From contig JAUIJD010000003.1 in NCBI GenBank assembly GCA_030431475.1, positions 1 to 64,000 on the forward strand: a stretch of DNA of 64,000 nt. Direction: 5' to 3'. Under the pieces are notes generated by a model. The model was given only the letters and a program-made list of their open reading frames with translations, made no database searches and was not told the origin of the DNA. The stretch is from Verrucomicrobiia bacterium (GTDB taxonomy: Bacteria; Verrucomicrobiota; Verrucomicrobiia; Verrucomicrobiales; Akkermansiaceae). The translations under genes and the position numbers were made by a program. Positions 7,437-19,741 of the stretch are shown here, one piece after another. The stretch's first letter is position 1. Each line of letters starts with the position of its first letter.

Positions 7437-9983
7437 CTACTCTTCCCAGATCATGTGCTCCATGCCGATGGTCTTGGCCCGTTCGTCGGCCTCCTCGGAG
7501 CGGGGGCCACCGAGCTGGGCGATGCGGCGCGCGAACTTCATGGCGCCCTCCCAGTCCTCGCGGCGCTCGAGAATGCCGAGGGCGGCGAATCCGCAGTCCT
7601 CGATTGCGTTCCAATCGCCCCGGGGCGTTTCGGGGGCGGCCTGGACGACGTCCATGTAGGCGACGAGCGCCTCTTCCTCGCGGTCGTCGAACTGCTCGAG
7701 CGCGAGGCCCTTGAGGTAGAGCAGGCGGAAGCGCGCGGGCGAGTCGGCCGGGAGGTCGGCGAGGAGTTGTTCGTACAGCGCCAGCGCTTCCTCGAGGCGC
7801 TCGGGATCTCCCTCGGCGCGGGCGAAAAGGGCGTCGCCGAGCAGCATTCCGGCAGAGAGCCGAAGCGGGTCGTCCTTTTCCATGCCCTCGAACCACGGAC
7901 GCAGGCATTCCACGGACTCATCGAGGCGGGCGAGGCGGTTGAGCAGGTCGGCCTTTTCCAGGCGGGCGACCGCCTGGAAGGGCGAGTCGGACTCGATCAG
8001 GCGGTCGAAGAGGGCAATGGCTTCCGATTGGGACTGGGGCGTGGCGCCCTCGGCGGCGGCACGGGCGGAGAGGAGCAGGGCGGCAGGCGCCTGGGGGGAT
8101 TCCGGCGAGTCCTTGGCGAGGGCTTCGAGCACCAGACGGGCGTCGTTGAAGTCGCGGTTGCGGAACAGCGCGCGGCCCTGCTCGAAGCGCAGGGTGGCGG
8201 CGGCGGGGTCATCGGGAAAGGCCTGGAGGAATGCGGCGGCGGTATCGGCGGCCTCGCGCCATTCGCCGCGGGCCTCGTGGAGGCGCATGTTGGCGAGGAC
8301 CAGCGACACGGCCGGCAGGGACGAGCGCTCGTCGTCGGGAATGCCGTCGAGCATGCGAGCGGCGACCTCGGGCTGGGGAGGGCGCGCGGCGAGGGCGGCG
8401 AGGGCGGCGCTGAGACGGGCGTTGGCCAGCCGTGGGTGCTCGGGATGGTTGCGGATGAAGGCGAGCAGCGACGGCAGGGCCTCGGGGGCCCGTTCCGACG
8501 CCAGGTGAAGCGAGCGCTCGAGCTCGAGCTGGGTCTGCAGCTTGGGGTCGGCCGCCGCTTCCCGGAGTTGGTCGAAGGCCGGCACGTCGCCGCCGGCAAG
8601 CAGCGAGGTCGCGGCGTTGAGGCGGGCGGCCCGGCGACGGTCGGCTTCGAGGAGTTCGGCGGCGCCATCGAAAAGCTCGGCGGCTTCCTCGTAGCGCTCG
8701 TCGCGGAACAGGGCGCCGGCTTCCAGGGTGAGCGCCTGGGCGCGGAGCTCGCGGGGCGAGTCGGCCCCCAGTTGCTGGATCGCCCCGAGGCAGGCGCTGG
8801 CCTGGTCGCGGTGGCCGGCCTCGAGTTCCCACCGACCGCGGACGAGCAGGGCGTGCGGGACGAGCGGGTGGGTCGGGTATTCCATCCTCAGGCGGTCGAG
8901 CAGTTGACGGGCGCGGGCCGGGGCGTCGGGGGAGGTCTGGCGTTTCAGGCCGAGGGCGAGGTGGAACAGCGCCTGGGGGGCGAGCGGGTCGTCGGCCGGC
9001 GCCGGAAGCGGCCATGCCCCGAGGGCACCGAGGCGATTCCCGGGAATCGTCGGCCCCTCGATCCGGGCCGCCGGGATCCACTCCCGGAGGCGGGTGAGGA
9101 TGGGGTCGTTGGGCGCGGGTTCGGCCGGCAGGCACCCGAGCAGCAGATCGAAGGCATCCCCGAGTACCGGCGATTCCGGGTTCTGCTGAATGAAGGCGAG
9201 CAAGCCGTCGGCCGCGGCCTGGGGACGGTTCATGGCGATCCGCGCCCGGGCGAGGATGACCGAAGCCTCCGGGTGGGCCGGCAGCTTGGCGTCGCGCCGA
9301 CGGTCGAGCAGGCGGTTGAGGATGGCGGCGGCGGCTTCGGGCTCGCCCATTTCGAGCAGGCACCGGGCGCGGATGATCCGGGCCGCCTCCGCCTCGGGAG
9401 GCGGGAGATCCTTCGGATCCGGGAGCACTTGGAGCGCCTCCTCGAAGCGGCCGACCTCAAGGAGGATCTCCGAGCGAAGCAGGCGTGCCGCCACCGGCGG
9501 ATCGGGCTCGGAAATCAGAAGGTCGAGGGTGGCGAGGGCGGCGGACGAGTCGCCGATCGCCCGCTGCAGGCGGGCCCGGGTAAGCCGTGCCTCGCGGCGG
9601 TGCGGTGAGGTGTCCGGCAGCTTGTCGAAGGCCTCGACGGCCTCGCGGAACCGGCCGGTGGCCGCGAGTGCCTGCGCTTCCCAGAAGCCGCGGGCGGGAT
9701 GCTCGGACAAGGCGGGATCCGCCAGAATCTCGAGAGCGGCTTCTCCGCGGTCGCCCCGCACCTTGGCCTCGGCCAGCCGGAGCAGAATGATGGCGCGGTC
9801 CTCGGGGGGGAGTCCCTCGGTCTTGAGGGCGGCCTCGAATCGATTGGCGGCCACTTCCCACAGCCGGCCTTCGAGGGCGTCGAGACCGAGCCGGTAGGTT
9901 GGGATTTCCTCGGGGTCCGGGTTTCCCCACACCGGGCCGATGCCGAGAACCATCAGCAGCAGCGCACGTCCGACCCTTGCCAT
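7437..9983 (-). CDS. Secreted tetratricopeptide-repeat protein
   Basis: An 848-residue protein starting with a signal peptide (MARVGRALLLMVLGIGPVWG) and followed almost entirely by TPR-like helical hairpins rich in Ala, Leu and Glu. Examples are YRLGLDALEGRLWEVAANRF, RFEEALQVLPDP and RDFNDARLVLEALAKDSPES. Upstream in-frame codons exist to 10031, but the ATG at 9983 places the hydrophobic core correctly. Such long exported TPR proteins are scaffolds in the cell envelope. No enzymatic motif is seen and the partner is unknown. It lies 99 bp downstream of the sigma-54 response regulator on the same strand, so co-transcription is possible. Confidence 0.8.
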   Translation of the reverse strand: MARVGRALLLMVLGIGPVWGNPDPEEIPTYRLGLDALEGRLWEVAANRFEAALKTEGLPPEDRAIILLRLAEAKVRGDRGEAALEILADPALSEHPARGFWEAQALAATGRFREAVEAFDKLPDTSPHRREARLTRARLQRAIGDSSAALATLDLLISEPDPPVAARLLRSEILLEVGRFEEALQVLPDPKDLPPPEAEAARIIRARCLLEMGEPEAAAAILNRLLDRRRDAKLPAHPEASVILARARIAMNRPQAAADGLLAFIQQNPESPVLGDAFDLLLGCLPAEPAPNDPILTRLREWIPAARIEGPTIPGNRLGALGAWPLPAPADDPLAPQALFHLALGLKRQTSPDAPARARQLLDRLRMEYPTHPLVPHALLVRGRWELEAGHRDQASACLGAIQQLGADSPRELRAQALTLEAGALFRDERYEEAAELFDGAAELLEADRRRAARLNAATSLLAGGDVPAFDQLREAAADPKLQTQLELERSLHLASERAPEALPSLLAFIRNHPEHPRLANARLSAALAALAARPPQPEVAARMLDGIPDDERSSLPAVSLVLANMRLHEARGEWREAADTAAAFLQAFPDDPAAATLRFEQGRALFRNRDFNDARLVLEALAKDSPESPQAPAALLLSARAAAEGATPQSQSEAIALFDRLIESDSPFQAVARLEKADLLNRLARLDESVECLRPWFEGMEKDDPLRLSAGMLLGDALFARAEGDPERLEEALALYEQLLADLPADSPARFRLLYLKGLALEQFDDREEEALVAYMDVVQAAPETPRGDWNAIEDCGFAALGILERREDWEGAMKFARRIAQLGGPRSEEADERAKTIGMEHMIWEE

Positions 9984-10082
9984 GCGGGGAGCATAGGCCG
10001 CGGGTCGGGCCGATGACAAACGACGAATCATCGGGATCCCATCAGGATGCGCGCCGGCGGGGAGCGGGGACCGAGGCCTCGC

Positions 10083-11456
<1,374 letters not shown>

Positions 11457-11689
11457 GGGTGCGAGGGAGGAGGTCGGGCGGGAGGGCGAACGGGCGGCAG
11501 ACTGTGGCGGTGCGGCGCCCGGTGCAAGACAGGAGGAAGGCATCCCGGAGCGATCCGTAGGTTCCCGTAGGCGGCTGAATCGCCGTCGAAGCTTGCGAAA
11601 CGCGGGGAAAGGGGCTTTCTTACGCCGTGGACGAGGCTTGCACCGGACGCTCCGCCGCGCTTCGATCCCGTCAATCCAACGCTCGAACC

Positions 11690-12268
11690 ATGAAAAATCC
11701 CAATTCGTTCCGCCGCTCCCAGGGTTTCACCCTGATCGAACTTCTCGTCGTCATCACCATCGTCGCGGTGCTCGCCGCCATGAGCTTCGCCGGCGTGAAC
11801 TCGGCGCTGAAGAAGGCCAAGATCACCCAGGGCCGGGTGGCGGCGACGAACGTCGCGCAGGCCGTCAACCAGTTCTACAGCGAATACAGCCGCCTGCCCG
11901 AGCTGACCGGCGACCTCCGGACCGACAGCGGCGGCGGTGTCCAGTTGCTTCAGATCCTGCTCGCCGAGGAAGGCGGGGGCAGCGACGTCGAGAATTCCCG
12001 GGGCATCAACTTCCTGAGCGTGCAGGAGGGCAAGGGCAAGCGGGGCGGTCTCTACTACGGTTCCGGCAGCGGTTCCTCGGTCCAGGGCCTCTACGATCCT
12101 TTCGGCAACGCCTACACCATCGTGCTCAACACCGACTACGAGGACACGCTGAGCTTCTCGATGGGCGGCAAGACCTACAATCTCCGCGGCGAGCAGGTGG
12201 CGGTCTACAGCCCCGGCCCCGACATGGAGGAAGGCACGACGGACGACATCACCAGCTTCCAGCGCTGA
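11690..12268 (+). CDS. Type II secretion/type IV pilin-like pseudopilin
   Basis: A 192-residue protein with a class III prepilin signal: a short basic leader ending in SQG followed by FTLIELLVVITIVAVLAA, with the +5 glutamate present. A long N-terminal helix follows (SALKKAKITQGRVAATNVAQ), then a globular part with DPFGNAYTIVLN and YSPGPD. This is the calcium-site/C-terminal pattern of GspG-like major pseudopilins (YSPGPD resembles the GspG-type SYGADG region). It would be cleaved by a PilD-type peptidase. It is a monocistronic unit closed by a strong terminator at 12294-12329, facing the minus-strand gene that follows. In-frame codons upstream to 11627 are ignored because the leader would be too long. 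Confidence 0.87.
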   Translation: MKNPNSFRRSQGFTLIELLVVITIVAVLAAMSFAGVNSALKKAKITQGRVAATNVAQAVNQFYSEYSRLPELTGDLRTDSGGGVQLLQILLAEEGGGSDVENSRGINFLSVQEGKGKRGGLYYGSGSGSSVQGLYDPFGNAYTIVLNTDYEDTLSFSMGGKTYNLRGEQVAVYSPGPDMEEGTTDDITSFQR

Positions 12269-12331: not shown

Positions 12332-14056
12332 TCATTTGAGGAGGGTTTCGACCCCCATCGCCGATTTCCGCAGGAACTTCGGCATGGCTTCCTTTTTCCG
12401 GGGCCGGAAGGCGCGGTAGACGAATCCCAGCAGGTGCAGGGTGAAGAGACGATCGACCAGCCGGTAGCCGCGCTGGCGCCGCAGCAGCAGGCCGGCGACC
12501 CAGGCCAGGGTGTGGCGTTTGACGCGCAGCGGCGCGAAGGACAGCTTGATCCGGTAGCGGGTGCCTTCCGTCTGCGGCCACGCTTCCTTGTAGGTGGCCT
12601 TGGCCTGGCGGATGCGTTGGGCGATTTCCTCGTCGAAGGGGAGGAAGTAGTAGCGCCGGGCGAGGCGGACGAGCTGGCAGAAGTCGCGCCAGTGACGGAT
12701 GTCGCGCTCGGGAAGTCCCGCCTCCGTCGCCCAGGTGACCATCTCCGGAAAGCGTTCGCACGCGGCCTCGCCGGCGCGCAGCGCGCGCTCGGGGTCGCGG
12801 ACGAAATGGCGCATGATCTTGCGCACCGCGTGGTTGATGAACAGGCAGTCCCAGTAGATGTGGAGCAGCGGGGGAATGCGGACCCGGCGGAAGAACAGCT
12901 TCTGACGGGCGAAGTCCTCGATGTACATCAGGTCTCGCACGATGATCTCCGAGGCGCGCAGCAGCTCGAGCGTGGCGAGGGCCCGGTCCTCGCCGACGAG
13001 GTCCCGCACCGCTTCCTCCACCGGTTGGCGGTCGCGGAAGGTGCGCAGGATGGCGTGGGCGTTGAGACGGATCCAGATGTCCTCTCCGGCGTCGGGGAGA
13101 AAGGCGAGCCGGCGGAAGCGGTGCCAGCCGCCGGTCTGGCACCAGACCGAGACCCCGACGAGATTCTCCGCCTCCTCGAGCTCGCGGGCGTACTGTTCGC
13201 AGTCCCAGCCGACGAAGGAGGGGAACTCCCCGGCGCCCTCATACTCGCGGCGGGCCTGGAACTCGATGATCTTCGGGTGGGGCGTGCGGAAGAAGGCGCG
13301 GTTGAGCGGGAGGTAGCGGAAGAAGTCGCTCTCGCCGAACTTCATCGAGACGATGAAACGGGGCGAGTCGATCCCGTCCAGCGTCGCGGCAAGGGTCTTG
13401 CGGTGCCAGATGAGGTCGCCGATGCGGTGCGCGCCGACCGTCCACGTTCGCAGGATCAGGTCCCGGCCCCGGGCCTCGAACAAGGGCACGAGCCGACGGA
13501 GCAGGCGGTTGGTGTCGTCGGGCGAGGTCAGATGAAGGCGGGAGCGGATCGGGTCCTTGACGTCGAGCCCGTCGCTTTCGCCGATGCGCAGGATCAGTCC
13601 GGCCACCTGCGGGAAGTCGTCGAGGAAGCGCTCGATCAGGTCGCAGAAGTAGTCCTCGAGCTGGTCGCGGCGGTGACCGATGGCTTCGTCGATCGCGGGC
13701 GTCAGGGGGATGATGTCGGAGGTGATGTGGATCTTCAGCCCGAACTCGTCGAGGATGCGGAAGATGGCCGCGAATTCCTCGCGGAAGACCTCGATCCTGC
13801 CGGCGATCTCCGGCTCGTGCAGCGGATGGGGGACGAGGTGGGCGAGGTCGTCGAGCGTGACCACGTTGTAGCCCATGGCCGAGACCTCGCCGGCGAAGTG
13901 CCGGATGTCCTTGCGGATCCCCGCCCATTGCGTCCGCCGGGCTTCGCCCTCGGTGGCGAGATGGGTGAACGGGATCTTGGACCAGTTGATGCGACGCTTT
14001 TCGTAGCCCCGGAAGAAAGGGCCGATGGCGTCGATCAAAAAGAGTCGTGGTGACAT
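12332..14056 (-). CDS. Conserved hypothetical protein, possible barrel-type glycoside-hydrolase-like
   Basis: A 574-residue protein without signal peptide. I do not recognise its family with confidence. The first ~350 residues alternate strand and helix in a TIM-barrel manner. They carry acidic and aromatic clusters like those of GH67/GH20-type sugar hydrolases: GLILRIGESDGLD, DLILRTWTVGAHRIGD, FIVSMKFGESDFFRY and FPSFVGWDCEQYARELE. The last ~220 residues are helical and basic (RQKLFFRRVRIPPLLHIYWDC and similar) and end in FRPRKKEAMPKFLRKSAMG. A sugar-related hydrolase is a guess from local motifs only. The gene is alone on its strand between two pseudopilin loci, and its start lies 160 bp upstream of the divergent cassette. 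Confidence 0.6.
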   Translation of the reverse strand: MSPRLFLIDAIGPFFRGYEKRRINWSKIPFTHLATEGEARRTQWAGIRKDIRHFAGEVSAMGYNVVTLDDLAHLVPHPLHEPEIAGRIEVFREEFAAIFRILDEFGLKIHITSDIIPLTPAIDEAIGHRRDQLEDYFCDLIERFLDDFPQVAGLILRIGESDGLDVKDPIRSRLHLTSPDDTNRLLRRLVPLFEARGRDLILRTWTVGAHRIGDLIWHRKTLAATLDGIDSPRFIVSMKFGESDFFRYLPLNRAFFRTPHPKIIEFQARREYEGAGEFPSFVGWDCEQYARELEEAENLVGVSVWCQTGGWHRFRRLAFLPDAGEDIWIRLNAHAILRTFRDRQPVEEAVRDLVGEDRALATLELLRASEIIVRDLMYIEDFARQKLFFRRVRIPPLLHIYWDCLFINHAVRKIMRHFVRDPERALRAGEAACERFPEMVTWATEAGLPERDIRHWRDFCQLVRLARRYYFLPFDEEIAQRIRQAKATYKEAWPQTEGTRYRIKLSFAPLRVKRHTLAWVAGLLLRRQRGYRLVDRLFTLHLLGFVYRAFRPRKKEAMPKFLRKSAMGVETLLK

Positions 14057-14144
14057 GAGGGCGCGAGCAAATCGCGGGGGAGGAGGTTCGAAAACGGTGC
14101 GATTCTGACGGGATCGTCACAATCGCGGTTTTGAGGCGAACGCG

Positions 14145-14159
14145 TGGCACGGCGATTGC
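14145..14159 (+). promoter_or_regulatory. Sigma-54 (-24/-12) promoter of the pseudopilin cassette
   Basis: TGGCACG-GCGA-TTGC is an exact match to the TGGCACG-N4-TTGC consensus with the strict GG-N10-GC spacing. A start site is expected near 14171, about 45 bp before the ATG of the first cassette gene. A second near-match, TGGCACCGGAGTTGA (14172-14186), has GA instead of GC. A 14-bp dyad GTGCCA-AA-TGGCAC (14164-14177) overlaps the predicted start. Confidence 0.75.
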
Positions 14160-14215
14160 GAGCGTGCCAAATGGCACCGGAGTTGATGGACTTCGGCGCT
14201 TCCGCACACTAATCC

Positions 14216-14854
14216 ATGACGGTGCCCCAGCCAGCGAGCTTCCGAAACCCTGCCAGAACCGGCTTCACGCTGGTGGAGCTGATCGCCGTGATCGCGATCG
14301 TGCTGATTCTGATGGCGGTCGGGATCGGCCTGCTCACGACGTCCCGGGGCGAGGCCCTGCGGACCGGCACCGAGCAGTTCACCTCGCTGGTCGAGCAGGC
14401 CCGGACCTCGGCGATCACCCGCCGCAAGCCGGTGGTGCTGGCCATTGCGGAGCCGGGGCGGACCGATCTCGGCGACGACCAGTGCCGGGTCGGGCTCTTC
14501 GAGCTCGAGGCCTGGAAGCCCGGGGAAGTGAACGAAGGGCGGCTGATCCAGCGCTGGCAGGTGCTGCCGATGGGAATCGCGCTGTTCGGAGGGGAAGTGG
14601 ATTCTCTGGCCAACGTAAAGGACGAGGACGCCATTTCCCTGACGTGGCGCGCGGGAACGGAGTCGGCCGAGATGCCGGGGTTGGTGTTCAGCCCGCGGGG
14701 CGGTCTGCTGGCGCCCGCCGGCTCGGAATCGGTCGTCGTCACCTTCGCCGCCGGCACCTATCGCGACGGAAATGCGGTGGCGACCGGCAAAGAACGCGGC
14801 AAAGTAGTCCGTATCGGGCGGGTCGTTGCCCGTCCCTGGCAAATGAACCAATGA
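14216..14854 (+). CDS. Verru_Chthon cassette protein D (pseudopilin, GspH-like)
   Basis: A 212-residue pseudopilin. The leader ends in RTG and is followed by FTLVELIAVIAIVLILMAVGI with Glu at +5. The body resembles GspH (a helix with SLVEQARTSAITRRKPVVLAI, then beta-rich), and the C-terminal VRIGRVVARPW is typical of the D member of the four-gene Verru_Chthon cassettes described from Verrucomicrobium and Chthoniobacter. It is first in a cassette with B, C and A. Its stop overlaps the next start as ATGA. A perfect sigma-54 promoter lies upstream. It is presumed to be processed by a PilD-like peptidase and to assemble with the other cassette products in a pseudopilus-type structure. The biological role of these cassettes is unknown. 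Confidence 0.87.
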   Translation: MTVPQPASFRNPARTGFTLVELIAVIAIVLILMAVGIGLLTTSRGEALRTGTEQFTSLVEQARTSAITRRKPVVLAIAEPGRTDLGDDQCRVGLFELEAWKPGEVNEGRLIQRWQVLPMGIALFGGEVDSLANVKDEDAISLTWRAGTESAEMPGLVFSPRGGLLAPAGSESVVVTFAAGTYRDGNAVATGKERGKVVRIGRVVARPWQMNQ

Positions 14855-15342
14855 AGAACCGTCCGTCATCCCGCACCCCGTCCGGCGTCTCCCTCCTGGA
14901 GTCGGTCATCGCGGTGGCGGTGATCGCCGTCGCCGTGCCGCTGGCGCTGGGCGCGATCGCCCGCGCCGGGGTGGTGGGAGGGTCGGCCCGCGCGGAAACC
15001 CGGGCGCCGGGTATCGTCGATTGGTGCCGGATCGAGCTCGAAGCCGCGCGCCGGGGCGAGTCGGAGCTTCTGCCGCCGATCGCGGCGGATCAGGCCTTTC
15101 CGGCGGGTGGGGAGGTGATGGCGCTGGCCTTCGACCGCGACGGCGCCTTGGTCGGGGCGCTGCCCGGCGAGGATTACCAGGACGGCGTGGCGGAGTTGGG
15201 GGATGAGGATGTCTTCTTCATCGCCTCGCTTTCGGGCCGCCCTGATGACAGCGGCGTGGTGATCACGGTGACCGTCGAGCATCCCTCGGTCCGGGCGGCC
15301 GACCGCCGCGACACGATTCCCTTCCACACGATTCTTCCATGA
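14851..15342 (+). CDS. Verru_Chthon cassette protein B (minor pseudopilin, GspI/V-like)
   Basis: A 163-residue small pseudopilin. The leader MKNRPSSRTPSG is followed by VSLLESVIAVAVIAVAVPLAL, with valine rather than phenylalanine after the cleavage glycine and the +5 Glu present. The remainder is short, with FDRDGALV and a C-terminal beta region (VVITVTVEHP) like GspI/PilV minor pseudopilins. Start and stop overlap the neighbours by 4 bp each (ATGA), indicating translational coupling. Its position between D and C identifies it as the B protein. Confidence 0.83.
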   Translation: MKNRPSSRTPSGVSLLESVIAVAVIAVAVPLALGAIARAGVVGGSARAETRAPGIVDWCRIELEAARRGESELLPPIAADQAFPAGGEVMALAFDRDGALVGALPGEDYQDGVAELGDEDVFFIASLSGRPDDSGVVITVTVEHPSVRAADRRDTIPFHTILP

Positions 15343-16076
15343 AAGCCCGCGCCGGATTCACCCTCGTCGAGCTGATGGTCTCCATGGCCATCGGCGCGAT
15401 CGTGCTGCTGCTTGCCGCCGGAGCCCTGCAGGCGGTGGGAGACGGCTACGGGCGGGGCACCGACGGCGTCGCCGCCGAGCGCGAGGCGCGGGCGGTGCTC
15501 ACCCAGGCGGCCGAGGATCTCGGCAAGGCCGTGGGCGGCCGGGAGATGGTCTTCGAGACTGCCGGGACCGGCTGGCGGCGCGACCGCATCGGATTCTTCT
15601 GCCTCCAGCCGGACGATGCCCAGAGCGCGGACGAGCGGGTGGGGGACCTGTGCGCCGTGGTTTACTACGTCACCGACCTCGAGGTGGGGGACGAGACCTT
15701 GCGTTGCCTGATGCGCGGCTTCCGCGGCAGCGAGGAAACCTTCGAGGCCCTGCGCAACGGATCGGAGACCTCCCTGTTCCAGGGGCGTCCGGCGGACGAA
15801 CCGGTGGCTTTCGGCGTGGTTTCCTTCGAGGCGAACCCGCTGGTGCGCCTGGCCGGCGCCGGCTGGTCCGAGTGGCGGGCCGAAGCGGATCCAGCGTGGG
15901 ACGGCCCCGATGCCGTGCGGTTGAAGCTGGTGGTGGCCCGCCGCGAGCTGATCGCGAAGCTCCGGGAAGCCGGGGCCTGGGACAGCAGCCCGCTGCTCGG
16001 CAGCCCGGATGAAGCCGCCGAGTCGGACCAGCTCGAATCCTACGAAGTTCTCCAATCGTTTGCCCATGCCTCCTGA
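15339..16076 (+). CDS. Verru_Chthon cassette protein C (pseudopilin, GspJ-like)
   Basis: A 245-residue pseudopilin with the very short leader MKARAG and then FTLVELMVSMAIGAIVLLLAAG. The body resembles GspJ/PilW, with REARAVLTQAAEDLGKAV after the N-terminal helix and a conserved VYYVTDLEVGDETLRCLMRGF strand-turn region. The length is typical of the C protein of the cassette. It overlaps gene B by 4 bp and the large A gene by 11 bp. Confidence 0.85.
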   Translation: MKARAGFTLVELMVSMAIGAIVLLLAAGALQAVGDGYGRGTDGVAAEREARAVLTQAAEDLGKAVGGREMVFETAGTGWRRDRIGFFCLQPDDAQSADERVGDLCAVVYYVTDLEVGDETLRCLMRGFRGSEETFEALRNGSETSLFQGRPADEPVAFGVVSFEANPLVRLAGAGWSEWRAEADPAWDGPDAVRLKLVVARRELIAKLREAGAWDSSPLLGSPDEAAESDQLESYEVLQSFAHAS

Positions 16077-19000
16077 ACGTCCAACCCCGCCCCGCCCGAA
16101 CGGCTTCACGCTTGCGGCCGTGATGGTGATCCTCGCGGCGCTGCTGCTGCTGAGCGTGGGGGTCCTCGCGGTGGTCGGGATCGAGCGCAAGACCGCCCGG
16201 TCCTACGTCGATGCCAAGCGCGCCGAATGGATCGCCCGTGCCGGTGCCGAGGAGGTGCGCACGCGGCTGCGCACCGAGACCGCCGACGACGACTTCCTGA
16301 TCGTATCGCGTCCCGGGGAGGAGGACGACACGACCGAGACGTCCCCGCTCGACTACCTTTACCTCGCCCGGGGCGAAGGCGGGGGCGACAGCGTGCAGTA
16401 CCGCCTCGTCCCGCTGTTCAGTGCGGCCTCGGGGGGGGGCGCGCCCTCTCCGGTGAGCGATCTGCGGAGTCTTCCGGATCCGTCGGAGATCGCCGGCGCC
16501 GACGTCGAGACCTTCGAGACACGGCCGTGGGCCGATGCCGCGCGGACGGCGTGGATTCCGGTGCAGGACGACGACGATCGCGTGGTCGGTCGCTATGCCT
16601 TCTGGGTCGAGGACCTCCAGGCCCGTGCCGGACTCGACGGCGGGGGCGAGGAGCGCGATCTCGCCGATTACGAGCGCGAGCCGTGGCCGCATCCGGCGGC
16701 GGGTGTCGATCCCGATCCCGAAGGGGTGCCGGTCGAACTGGCGCTGCAGGCGCTTGATCCCGAGGCGGGAGGCGACGCCGGGGAGACCGATCTCGACGAC
16801 CGTCTGATCGAGGGGCGTCCCCTGATGATTTCCCCGGATTCCGCCCTGGCCGCGGCGGGTTTCGAGGCCCCGCTGGAACGGGGTGAGGACGGGCGCCTGC
16901 TCGATCCGGCGGCCGATGCGGTGGAACGGGGACTGTCGCCCCAGGTGAAGCCCTACGAGGAACGGCCGCTGGTGCCGCATGCCCGCGGCATCGACGCGTC
17001 GGTGGCGGGCGAGCCGAAGCTCAACCTCAACGAACTGCTCTCCGCCCCCCGGGCCCAGGCGATCGGGGACTTCAAGAACCGGATCCAGGATGCGCTTCCG
17101 GAATTCGAGAACCGCAAGGGCGCGTTTCCCGATGACTACCTCGGGACGCTCGCCGCCGGTGCCTTCGACTACGCGGATGACGACGACGACGCCACGCTCG
17201 GAGCGGGCATCCGCGGGCTCGATGCCTATCCGCTGCTCAGCGAGATCTTCCTCCAGGTGAACTTCAAGGGGCTGGAGCTGGACGACGACGGGAAGTACCT
17301 CCTGTGGACGATCAAGCTTTTCGCCGAGGTGTGGAACATGACGAGCGAGCCCGTCTCCGGCGAGGTCCGGCTCAGCTACGAGAACGGGCTCTCCACCACC
17401 GGGATCAGCGCGCTGCCGCAGGGACTTCGTTTCGACGATCCCCGGCTGTTGCTCGATCCGGCCCAATCGACCCACACCCTCAATGAGATCGACGGTCGGT
17501 TCTGGTCGGCGCCGGTGTCCCTGTCGCTGGAGCCCGACCAGTATGAAACGCGGGAGTTCGCCTCGGTCGACTACCGGATCTACGTCAGCCCCCGTAGTGG
17601 GCCCGGGAGTGTGTTCATCACGAGCTTCGCGCTCATCGAGCAGCTCGGTGCCGCCGGGCTGTCGATGCAGTGGAACGGCGACGAGGTCGACCGGGTCGAG
17701 CGCATTGTCCGCTACGCCGTGGGGGACACCGCCTCGGACTTCCGCTTCAACGCGACCCGGCCGAAGTCGGTGACGAAGGCGGCCATCCCGGGTCACAGCT
17801 ACGGGCCCTACGGTGACTTCATCAACAACATGGGGGATCCGCGGATCTCCAACTACATCCGTAGTACGCGATGGCCGCTGGGGCTGAACGCCTATCCGGC
17901 GAACGCCAGCCCGAACCGCCGGAATATCCGCCGCGGAACCATCTACGACCGGGACTCGGGTCTCAAGGCGAAGGCCTACGGACGCGTGCTGCCCTCCGAG
18001 TGGCCCGACGGCGGGCACGATTCACAGGTCGGCGTCTGGCGAAACAACGGCACGGATGCCACGCCGCCGACCCACGCCGCCCTGATCGGCAGCGTTCCCA
18101 CGCCGTCCGCGGAGAACTCTCCGCAGCGGCTCTCCAACCTCGGACGGTTCTATTCGGCGACGGAGCTCGGCCGCGTCTTCGACCCGGTGATGTGGTGGCC
18201 GACCTATCCCGACCTGCCGAACAAGCCCGGAACCGGGGCCCAGGACACCCGTTCGCTGGCGCCGCGGCCTCCACAGAGCGGCGGGATCATGCCCAGCCGC
18301 CGCAACCGCTGGCCCGAGGTGAGCGCGGCGGCCGATGCCAGCAGCGTCCACGGCGGCGGCAACACGCTGCGCATCGGCCGTCCCGAGCACGAGCGTTTCG
18401 TCGAGGAGGAGGGCCTGCACGCCGCGCATCTGCTTGATCTGTTCCACGCCGGGAAGTCCCGCTCGGAGAACGCCGACGAGCGCGAAGGGCCGCTGGTCAC
18501 GATCGACGGGAAGGTGAACGTCAACACCGCCACTCCCGAAGCCATCCGGACGCTGGCCTCCGGCCTGCTGACCCAGGATCCGCGGCTCTCCCGCCTGCTC
18601 AGTCCGGCCCACCGGCCGGCGCCGGTGATGGCTCCCTTCACCCAGCCGATGGACCTCGGTGCGCCGGAGCGGGAACGGGTCGCCGACTACATCGCCGAGG
18701 CGATCGTCGGGTCGCGTCCCTTCGCCAGCGCGCGCGACCTGGCCGACGCCCGGACCACGGCGCCGGACGGGACCGAGGAGCAGCCGGTATTCGGAAACCG
18801 CGACTTCTACGACCTCGGCGACCGGGTGTGGTGGAACGACGCCGCCGCCGAGGAGGTCTTCGCCCGCATCTACGAGGGCACCACGCTGCGCTCACGGAAT
18901 TTCCGCGTCTGGGTCGTGGGCCAGGCTCTGGCACCACGGGCCGCCGGGGCCACCGGCGACCCCGAGGTCCTGGCCGAGTCGCGCAAGGTTTTCTCGGTGT

Positions 19001-19086
19001 TCGCCGATCCCGGCGAGCGCGACGAGAACGGGGAGATCGACCCCGCCCGCTACCGCCCCGCCATTGTCCATGAGAACGATTTCTAG
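16066..19086 (+). CDS. Verru_Chthon cassette protein A (giant GspK-like pseudopilin)
   Basis: A 1006-residue protein with a prepilin-like N-terminus: the leader ends in PNG and is followed by FTLAAVMVILAALLLLSVGVLAV. It lacks the +5 glutamate (Ala instead), as GspK tip pseudopilins do. KRAEWIARAGAEEVRTRLR after the helix is a GspK-like region. The large remainder has no known enzymatic motif. It includes KVNVNTATPEAIRTL near the C-terminus, which matches the helix-hairpin-like NVNTA motif of GspK proteins, and FASARDLADA. It is about three times the size of GspK. Its start ATG at 16066 lies inside the end of gene C, and its own end overlaps the next gene by 17 bp. Confidence 0.86.
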   Translation: MPPERPTPPRPNGFTLAAVMVILAALLLLSVGVLAVVGIERKTARSYVDAKRAEWIARAGAEEVRTRLRTETADDDFLIVSRPGEEDDTTETSPLDYLYLARGEGGGDSVQYRLVPLFSAASGGGAPSPVSDLRSLPDPSEIAGADVETFETRPWADAARTAWIPVQDDDDRVVGRYAFWVEDLQARAGLDGGGEERDLADYEREPWPHPAAGVDPDPEGVPVELALQALDPEAGGDAGETDLDDRLIEGRPLMISPDSALAAAGFEAPLERGEDGRLLDPAADAVERGLSPQVKPYEERPLVPHARGIDASVAGEPKLNLNELLSAPRAQAIGDFKNRIQDALPEFENRKGAFPDDYLGTLAAGAFDYADDDDDATLGAGIRGLDAYPLLSEIFLQVNFKGLELDDDGKYLLWTIKLFAEVWNMTSEPVSGEVRLSYENGLSTTGISALPQGLRFDDPRLLLDPAQSTHTLNEIDGRFWSAPVSLSLEPDQYETREFASVDYRIYVSPRSGPGSVFITSFALIEQLGAAGLSMQWNGDEVDRVERIVRYAVGDTASDFRFNATRPKSVTKAAIPGHSYGPYGDFINNMGDPRISNYIRSTRWPLGLNAYPANASPNRRNIRRGTIYDRDSGLKAKAYGRVLPSEWPDGGHDSQVGVWRNNGTDATPPTHAALIGSVPTPSAENSPQRLSNLGRFYSATELGRVFDPVMWWPTYPDLPNKPGTGAQDTRSLAPRPPQSGGIMPSRRNRWPEVSAAADASSVHGGGNTLRIGRPEHERFVEEEGLHAAHLLDLFHAGKSRSENADEREGPLVTIDGKVNVNTATPEAIRTLASGLLTQDPRLSRLLSPAHRPAPVMAPFTQPMDLGAPERERVADYIAEAIVGSRPFASARDLADARTTAPDGTEEQPVFGNRDFYDLGDRVWWNDAAAEEVFARIYEGTTLRSRNFRVWVVGQALAPRAAGATGDPEVLAESRKVFSVFADPGERDENGEIDPARYRPAIVHENDF

Positions 19087-19741
19087 ACTCCTGCTCGCCC
19101 TCCTGCTCCTGACCCCTCTCCGTGCCCAGGACCCGGGTGAGAAGTACGGGTTCATCCGGCTCGTCAACGCGGTCGCCCCCGGTGACGGCCACGTGACGCT
19201 GCTCCTCGACGGCTCGAACCTCTATCCTTCCGGCTACCGCCTCGGCGACGCGACCGGCGGCATGGGCGTGCCCGTCGGACGCTGCAAGGTCGTGGTCCGG
19301 CGCGACGGGGTGAAGGAGGGCACCACGACGATCGACGTGAAGGAGGGGAAGACGACGACCATCATTCCCTTCGCCGAGCGCATTCCCGCGACGGACGATG
19401 AACCGGAGCACTGGCAGATCCGGATCCTGCGCCTGAAGCAGAAGGGCGAATCGAAGAAGCGCGAGGCGACCTTTGTCTCGGTCGCCCTCGACGAGGAGAT
19501 CCCGATCGAGATGAGGGACCCCGACGGGACGTGGAAGAAGTACGGCGTGAAGCGTTTCGATACCACGGTCGCCCCGATGAACTACCCCGAGGGCTACGTG
19601 CCGCTGCGCATGAAGGACCAGGAACTCCCGTCGATCCCCGTGCTCGACATCGGCAACTACGTCGTCGTCCTCTACAACGACGCCGACGGCAAGGTCCAGG
19701 CGCTCAACTTCCGCGACTTCCACCACGTCACGGCGGACTGA
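19070..19741 (+). CDS. Hypothetical exported protein, fifth gene of the pseudopilin cassette
   Basis: A 223-residue protein with a signal peptide (MRTISRLLLALLLLTPLRAQ). A beta-rich domain follows, YGFIRLVNAVAPGDGHVTLLL then LDGSNLYPSGYRLGDATGG, resembling DUF4397-like immunoglobulin-type folds. It ends with VLDIGNYVVVLYNDADG. No enzymatic motif is seen. The start overlaps the end of the A gene by 17 bp, so it is surely translated with the cassette and is probably an envelope partner of it. Confidence 0.75.
   Translation: MRTISRLLLALLLLTPLRAQDPGEKYGFIRLVNAVAPGDGHVTLLLDGSNLYPSGYRLGDATGGMGVPVGRCKVVVRRDGVKEGTTTIDVKEGKTTTIIPFAERIPATDDEPEHWQIRILRLKQKGESKKREATFVSVALDEEIPIEMRDPDGTWKKYGVKRFDTTVAPMNYPEGYVPLRMKDQELPSIPVLDIGNYVVVLYNDADGKVQALNFRDFHHVTAD

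Follow-up and report, generated by a model that had tools for sequence, protein, structure and literature searches.

A probable RpoN promoter in front of a pseudopilin cassette in the Akkermansiaceae

Positions 14145-14159 of the window (the whole analysed stretch of 64,000 nucleotides from an Akkermansiaceae bacterium) probably form the core of a working RpoN promoter that serves a pseudopilin operon; from the sequence we infer its activation and transcription, its link to phosphate and the structure of the operon. The only exact sigma-54 match of the window, TGGCACG-GCGA-TTGC, lies here on the + strand (TGGCACGGCGATTGC, 11/11, no mismatches). Its GG and GC are 10 bp apart, which is the spacing of sigma-54 promoters, and 57 bp separate its last base from the ATG at 14216, so that a sequence scan confirmed the exact spacing and the distance to the first cassette gene given in the initial annotation. 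The consensus mrNrYTGGCACG-N4-TTGCWNNw quoted in PMC2725144 has A or T after TTGC, where the window has G, and only this final W is missing. The genome encodes RpoN (PF04552, 192.4 bits in a profile search), and this gene, together with the boxes found before orthologous cassettes, supports the view taken in the same annotation that the match belongs to a sigma-54 promoter. The RpoN promoter would start transcription near 14171 of an operon that covers 14216-19086 and probably extends to 19741 and, as sigma-54 promoters generally do, it would need an enhancer-binding ATPase to open it and remain closed until then. The upstream region contains the following features:

14106..14119, strand not applicable: palindrome TGACGGGATCGTCA (TGAC-N6-GTCA), putative operator, centred 34 bp upstream of the -24 GG
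14145..14159, + strand: predicted sigma-54 core promoter TGGCACG-N4-TTGC (GG 14146-14147, GC 14158-14159), an exact match that is identical in G017, a genome of the same genus, within a conserved island, and has counterparts before orthologues
14163..14169, + strand: CGTGCCA, which forms an inverted repeat with the -24 heptamer (TGGCACG-N11-CGTGCCA, 14145-14169), kept in G017
14171, + strand: transcription start as predicted from sigma-54 geometry, 12 bp past the -12 C
14172..14186, + strand: further, degenerate box TGGCACCGGAGTTGA with two mismatches and the -12 GC lost; it lies at -44 from the ATG, where relatives most often have their box

The cassette itself consists of four overlapping ORFs (14216-19086) plus a fifth ORF to 19741, and two further genes lie on its upstream side:

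14216..14854, + strand: first cassette gene, encoding a GspH-like pseudopilin (above the gathering score for PF12019 and N_methyl, below the cut-off of TIGR02596)
14851..15342, + strand: second cassette gene, pilin-like (modelled as one long helix and a beta domain)
15339..16076, + strand: third cassette gene, prepilin-like and C-like (N_methyl; TIGR02599 below cut-off)
16009..19086, + strand: fourth cassette gene, large and GspK/A-like (NF037980 GspK and TIGR02600 below cut-offs)
19070..19741, + strand: fifth ORF, overlapping the fourth
11690..12268, + strand: GspG-like prepilin gene between activator and cassette (TIGR01710 below cut-off)
12332..14056, - strand: divergent gene that shares the intergenic region, with no family hit of note

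The true start of the fourth ORF is probably the ATG at 16066 and not 16009. The GspG-like gene adjoins the cassette in six genomes of the genus, own included. The divergent gene encodes 574 amino acids and adjoins the cassette in the genus and in G205 and G202 (61-86% identity); it may share the palindrome with the cassette.

Orthologous cassettes were found with the fourth protein, which matched in 79 of the 260 family genomes at E≤1e-20, own included. Many of these matches begin near residue 29-32. The orthologues point to the Akkermansiaceae, with Haloferula rosea, H. luteola, Luteolibacter pohnpeiensis, Roseibacillus ishigakijimensis and many uncultured members. Sixty loci were fetched (59 of the 78 other matching genomes and G038), and the 61 oriented loci yielded 57 upstream regions, window included, after exclusion of G192, G185, G194 and G042, where neither the first nor the second gene could be placed; the start was taken from the second gene in 6 of the 57. 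The 250 bp upstream were scanned for GG-N10-GC with a score out of 11, and 100 dinucleotide shuffles and the opposite strand served as controls. Boxes of at least 9/11 were found in 23 of the 57 regions, compared with a mean of 1.1 (maximum 5) in the shuffles and 3 on the opposite strand; more than half of the regions thus have no good box, and on the tree boxes are absent from several clades. Twenty of these 23 boxes lie within 75 bp of the start, and the other three (G230, G217 and G215), at more than 200 bp upstream, are probably unrelated. Boxes of at least 10/11 occur in 9/57 regions (shuffles 0.05, opposite strand 2) and complete 11/11 boxes in four, namely own, G017, G058 and G193 (shuffles 0, opposite strand 0).

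The -12 element was also assessed blindly, in 58 regions (the 57 and G042) from which regions were picked by TTTAC-N3-GTG-N-TGGC alone at a score of at least 9/12. The -12 offset is occupied by GC in 18 of the 29 picked regions, compared with at most 6/29 at each of 24 other offsets. Where the upstream motif is complete (12/12), GC is found at the -12 offset in 15/19 regions, and the four exceptions (G003, G006, G007 and G013) come from one branch of the window's genus on the tree. The base after GC, which was not scored, is A or T as in the consensus in all 19 relatives aligned on their boxes, a set that was picked for a box near the start and leaves out G001, G002 and G042. The motif TTTAC-N3-GTG is located just upstream of -24, for example in L148, L154 and L162, and it is kept in one branch of the genus without the -12 GC; the window box does not have it. 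The recurrent boxes before orthologous cassettes thus look like sigma-54 promoters.

This recurrence seems to be limited to the orthologues. The initial annotation had proposed to scan other Verru_Chthon cassettes for such boxes; boxes do recur in orthologues, but of 20 other Verru_Chthon-D-like genes (one from the own genome and 19 from other families of the order, two of the 20 passing the TIGR02596 cut-off) none has a box of at least 9/11 and three have 8/11, with some of these genes maybe not first in their operon. RpoN control therefore looks like a trait of this cassette lineage and not of Verru_Chthon cassettes at large. Since rpoN was matched in 240 of the 260 family genomes, its co-occurrence with the cassette is uninformative. 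Three box-bearing genomes gave no rpoN match (G058 and G026, 96 and 98% complete, and G198, 59% complete), possibly as a result of assembly gaps.

The second element of the upstream region is the palindrome at 14106-14119. TGAC-N6-GTCA is complete in 14 of the 57 cassette upstreams (shuffles 0.15) and present with at least 7/8 positions in 33 (shuffles 4.55). The distance from its centre to the -24 GG is 67-69 bp in 13 genomes and 72 bp in G193, 54-55 bp in five genomes of another genus, and 34-35 bp in own and G017; G001 and G002 fall outside this pattern, at 49 and 23 bp. Because the distance from -24 is fixed in two groups of relatives, the palindrome is the most likely, still putative, regulator site. 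Across the 57 regions, box (at least 8/11, near the start) and palindrome occur together in 23, the box alone in one, the palindrome alone in 10 and neither in 23 (Fisher 3.6e-7, relatedness ignored); counted on the tree, only three supported independent pairs remain and the pairing reaches no significance.

The palindrome also recurs at phosphate genes. TGACR-N4-YGTCA is found at 15 places in the window's genome, compared with four for the reversed control. Among the copies taken as intergenic, as judged by ORFs of at least 100 amino acids with high third-position GC, two in tandem precede a phosphate-porin (Porin_O_P) gene. A gene for a PstS-like binding protein has one copy ahead of its likely start, and a VTC gene, itself followed by a Porin_O_P gene, has one at a distance of 20 bp; other copies precede genes with no phosphate link. 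The copies at phosphate loci are located at L194:2617-2662, L194:4094-4107 and L191:2523-2536 (own contigs C89 and C45). Upstream of porin orthologues the complete palindrome is present in 15 of 29 loci (composition-only shuffles 0.05), a set of 29 of 30 loci that includes second copies and leaves out L244, whose hit was split. TGAC-N6-GTCA thus looks like a phosphate operator of this lineage. The cassette palindrome has the same sequence, and sharing an operator with phosphate genes is one mark of membership in a Pho regulon. Since the palindrome also stands upstream of phosphate porin, PstS-like and VTC genes, the cassette may follow phosphate supply and may be tuned by it. The PhoB model has 21 matches in the window's genome, none above cut-off. 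The surroundings (about 1.5 kb) of ten PhoB-model matches contain no complete palindrome except one copy in L259, and those of 20 activator orthologues none except one copy in L219.

These observations could be joined into one tentative and, taken as a whole, rather doubtful scheme. According to it, the Akkermansiaceae would have a composite promoter in which a phosphate-type palindrome at fixed spacing controls a sigma-54 core, and a secretion pseudopilus tip would be assembled in response to phosphate starvation; in the window's lineage a new perfect box 27 bp upstream would have replaced the core, with the old slot decaying.

The strongest alternative is that the cassette is transcribed from a housekeeping-sigma promoter under a palindrome-binding, phosphate-type regulator, with the -24/-12 match vestigial or minor here. 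We consider this unlikely. It would explain why a palindrome of at least 7/8 occurs without a box in 6 of 13 genomes of the genus, and it fits the porin upstreams, which share the palindrome and have a sigma-54 box of at least 9/11 in 0/29 cases (8/11 in two); the palindrome's factor therefore probably acts at non-sigma-54 promoters too. However, own and G017 share a box that matches the consensus perfectly and sits in a conserved island. Moreover, in the 44 genomes outside the genus box and palindrome mostly go together, with 19 having both, one the box only, four the palindrome only and 20 neither (relatedness ignored), which argues against a vestigial box.

The RpoN promoter, which we prefer, seems to have a particular history in the window's genus. 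Outside the genus, boxes near the start lie at -39 to -60 in the relatives that have one, with 7/19 at -44 (starts extrapolated from the alignment), whereas the window box lies at -71 from the ATG, 27 bp upstream of this commonest slot (about -44). The degenerate box at 14172-14186 occupies the -44 position, and the second, half-matched box mentioned in the initial annotation was recovered there with two mismatches. Boxes at -71/-72 are also present in G017 and, weakly, in G002 (TGGCGCAGCCCGTGC, 8/11); own, G017 and G002 form one branch of the tree (support 85), within which own and G017 group together (support 91). We infer from these positions that the promoter core moved in the window's lineage. 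A strong box is confined to own and G017 among the 13 members of the genus. Weaker ones occur in G001 (9/11) and G002; in seven other genomes the only match (8/11) lies between -152 and -169, beside the start of the divergent gene, and was not counted as the same box. Between own and G017, CGTGGCACGGCGATTGCGnGCGTGCCA differs at one base and its flanks at many positions.

Part of this conservation may have another cause, since the 7-bp inverted repeat TGGCACG-N11-CGTGCCA makes use of the -24 heptamer, and it is possible that a second protein sits at the promoter through this repeat. Taken further, the conserved island could be a dyad operator for a dimeric regulator, or a leader hairpin if the transcript starts further upstream, with the -12 match a coincidence. 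The perfect 7-bp repeat is identical in two species, the expected probability of finding a partner heptamer within 30 nt is about 0.003, and the RNA folds with -12.8 kcal/mol in own and -15.7 kcal/mol in G017. On the other hand, the arms are the -24 heptamer with TTGC correctly spaced, and orthologues have sigma-54 boxes without the dyad. Among 18 genomes of the genus the exact dyad occurs only at the window promoter and in G017, and with at most one mismatch it was counted 36 times compared with 38 for the control; with no excess over the control, the dyad does not qualify as a regulon operator. This makes a dyad or hairpin in place of the promoter very unlikely. As a recurrent operator the dyad was rejected on these 18-genome counts. 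The initial annotation also described a dyad over the predicted start; GTGCCA-AA-TGGCAC is indeed present at 14164-14177, but it is not kept in the nearest relative.

That the box is a chance match without function agrees with a genome-wide exact count equal to expectation but is hardly credible given its position before the operon, its identity in G017 and the boxes before orthologous cassettes in several genera. The 4.73 Mb genome contains three exact boxes, compared with one for the reversed control and 3.3 expected from base composition (67% GC), and 69 boxes with at most one mismatch, fewer than the reversed control (88). The exact count is thus at chance level, and the match as such is no evidence. 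Genome-wide enrichment of exact or one-mismatch boxes was rejected, as counts were at or below chance or control. The placement of the exact boxes is more telling: according to the ORF calls each of the three precedes a start codon and is oriented in the sense of the gene, with 57 bp (cassette), 43 bp (ammonium transporter amtB) and 16 bp (Na:alanine symporter) between box end and ATG. The two others are located at L196:2034-2048, before the symporter gene, and L197:1389-1403, before the ammonium transporter gene. Ammonium transporters are a classic class of RpoN targets, and these two boxes perhaps belong to a nitrogen regulon. Since the symporter box ends only 16 bp before the ATG used, the true start of this gene may lie further down.

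If an enhancer-binding ATPase opens the cassette promoter, the NtrC-type gene in the neighbourhood is a weak candidate for it. Two genes have to be considered:

10083..11543, - strand: NtrC-type response regulator (receiver PF00072, sigma-54 interaction domain PF00158, GAFTGA)
7437..10031, - strand: TPR protein, usual neighbour of the activator, adjacent in 19/20 loci

The intact GAFTGA reported in the initial annotation is present, and the distance given there as about 2.8 kb is 2.6 kb when measured from the box. Orthologues of the activator at E≤1e-150 extend to 165 of the 260 family genomes, including genera in which no cassette was matched. Among the matches listed, the g3 genomes have no regulator orthologue at this threshold. 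The activator adjoins the TPR gene in 19 of the best-matching 20 loci, 17 of which are from the window's genus, own included. It is located upstream of the cassette in only two of 61 loci (own and G017), counted on upstream sides only and with several loci short; elsewhere, in the rows compared, the two genes do not share a contig or are separated by at least 30 kb. Because the activator pairs with the TPR gene and is rarely upstream of the cassette, its closeness is poor evidence for control of the cassette, and a PilR-type activator kept beside its target is not what we find. No Fis-type DNA-binding domain was detected in the activator even at E≤10, although its C-terminus resembles one by eye. 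The circuit that had been proposed with the neighbouring activator is weakened by the TPR pairing, by its occurrence beside the cassette in just two species and by the lack of a listed DNA-binding domain.

What the cassette encodes can be placed between two known families. The first protein combines a prepilin N-terminus (N_methyl) with a GspH domain (PF12019), as minor pseudopilins of type II secretion systems (T2SS) do. The second protein gave no NCBIfam hit in the profile search; its model is confident (pLDDT 91.7) and has no Foldseek match at E≤0.001, and comparison with the XcpGHIJK pseudopilus gave a weak match with a low Z that tied with unrelated rows. For the fourth protein (1025 aa) the model is of low confidence (pLDDT 70), shows beta-rich regions and has no structural match at E≤0.001. 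The equivalog cut-offs for GspH and GspK were missed (22.5/80 and 24.3/130 bits), and the weak GspK match of the fourth protein is confined to its N-terminus. Against TIGR02596, TIGR02599 and TIGR02600 the respective scores of the D-, C- and A-like proteins are 29.6/70, 30/256.5 and 22.3/332.3 bits (score/cut-off), over an N-terminal stretch only. TIGR02600 is matched by 4/7 A-type orthologues (best E 6.9e-07). The label of a Verru_Chthon cassette used in the initial annotation is not supported by the NCBI thresholds, none of which is reached, and the second protein has no hit. Since no cut-off was reached for GspH, GspK or Verru_Chthon C/D/A, we propose to call it a pseudopilin cassette; it resembles both the T2SS GspH-K sets and the Verru_Chthon cassettes and, by these cut-off tests, is a member of neither.

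We know of no account of what these pseudopilin cassettes do or how they are controlled, and a literature search on titles and abstract openings found no publication on this promoter or cassette. The kind of promoter is, as far as sequence comparison goes, real and recurrent, and it is ordinary in mechanism. It is of interest because an unstudied cassette gains a testable regulator and perhaps a phosphate signal: the recurrent RpoN promoter and the site common to phosphate genes point to two concrete candidate signals for the cassette. Named relatives with these elements are Luteolibacter pohnpeiensis (9/11 box, close to the usual slot) and Haloferula rosea and H. luteola (palindrome 7/8, without a box).

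Several known systems are comparable. Firstly, control of pilA by PilS-PilR and RpoN in Pseudomonas aeruginosa and Geobacter sulfurreducens is alike in that a pilin-class gene lies behind a -24/-12 element with an NtrC-type gene nearby (for Geobacter, PMC2725144). The difference is that here a pseudopilin operon and not a major pilin is concerned, and that the nearby activator is not kept beside the cassette in relatives. PilR sites are described in PMC6058289 as NifA-like TGT-N11-AGA with GTCT elements, whereas the site upstream of the cassette is a TGAC-N6-GTCA palindrome common to phosphate genes. Secondly, the locus resembles the T2SS pseudopilins (GspG, GspH-I-J-K) in having a GspH-like first gene, a large GspK-like fourth gene and a GspG-like gene close by, but the proteins miss the equivalog cut-offs and the fourth is 1025 aa long and, in a low-confidence model, beta-rich. 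Thirdly, the Verru_Chthon cassettes (TIGR02596, TIGR02599, TIGR02600) also comprise several consecutive prepilin-like genes, one of them very large, and weak N-terminal matches connect the two; scores are, however, far below cut-offs and none of the 20 D-like genes has a box of at least 9/11. Lastly, the cassette resembles the phosphate genes with a PHO box through the palindrome, which is also found at phosphate porin, PstS-like and VTC loci. CTGTCAC-type direct repeats with 11-bp spacing, which we take to resemble the E. coli PHO box, are present in some of the porin promoters as well. In contrast to the PHO box, the half-sites at the cassette are inverted and not direct, and they are combined with a predicted sigma-54 core.
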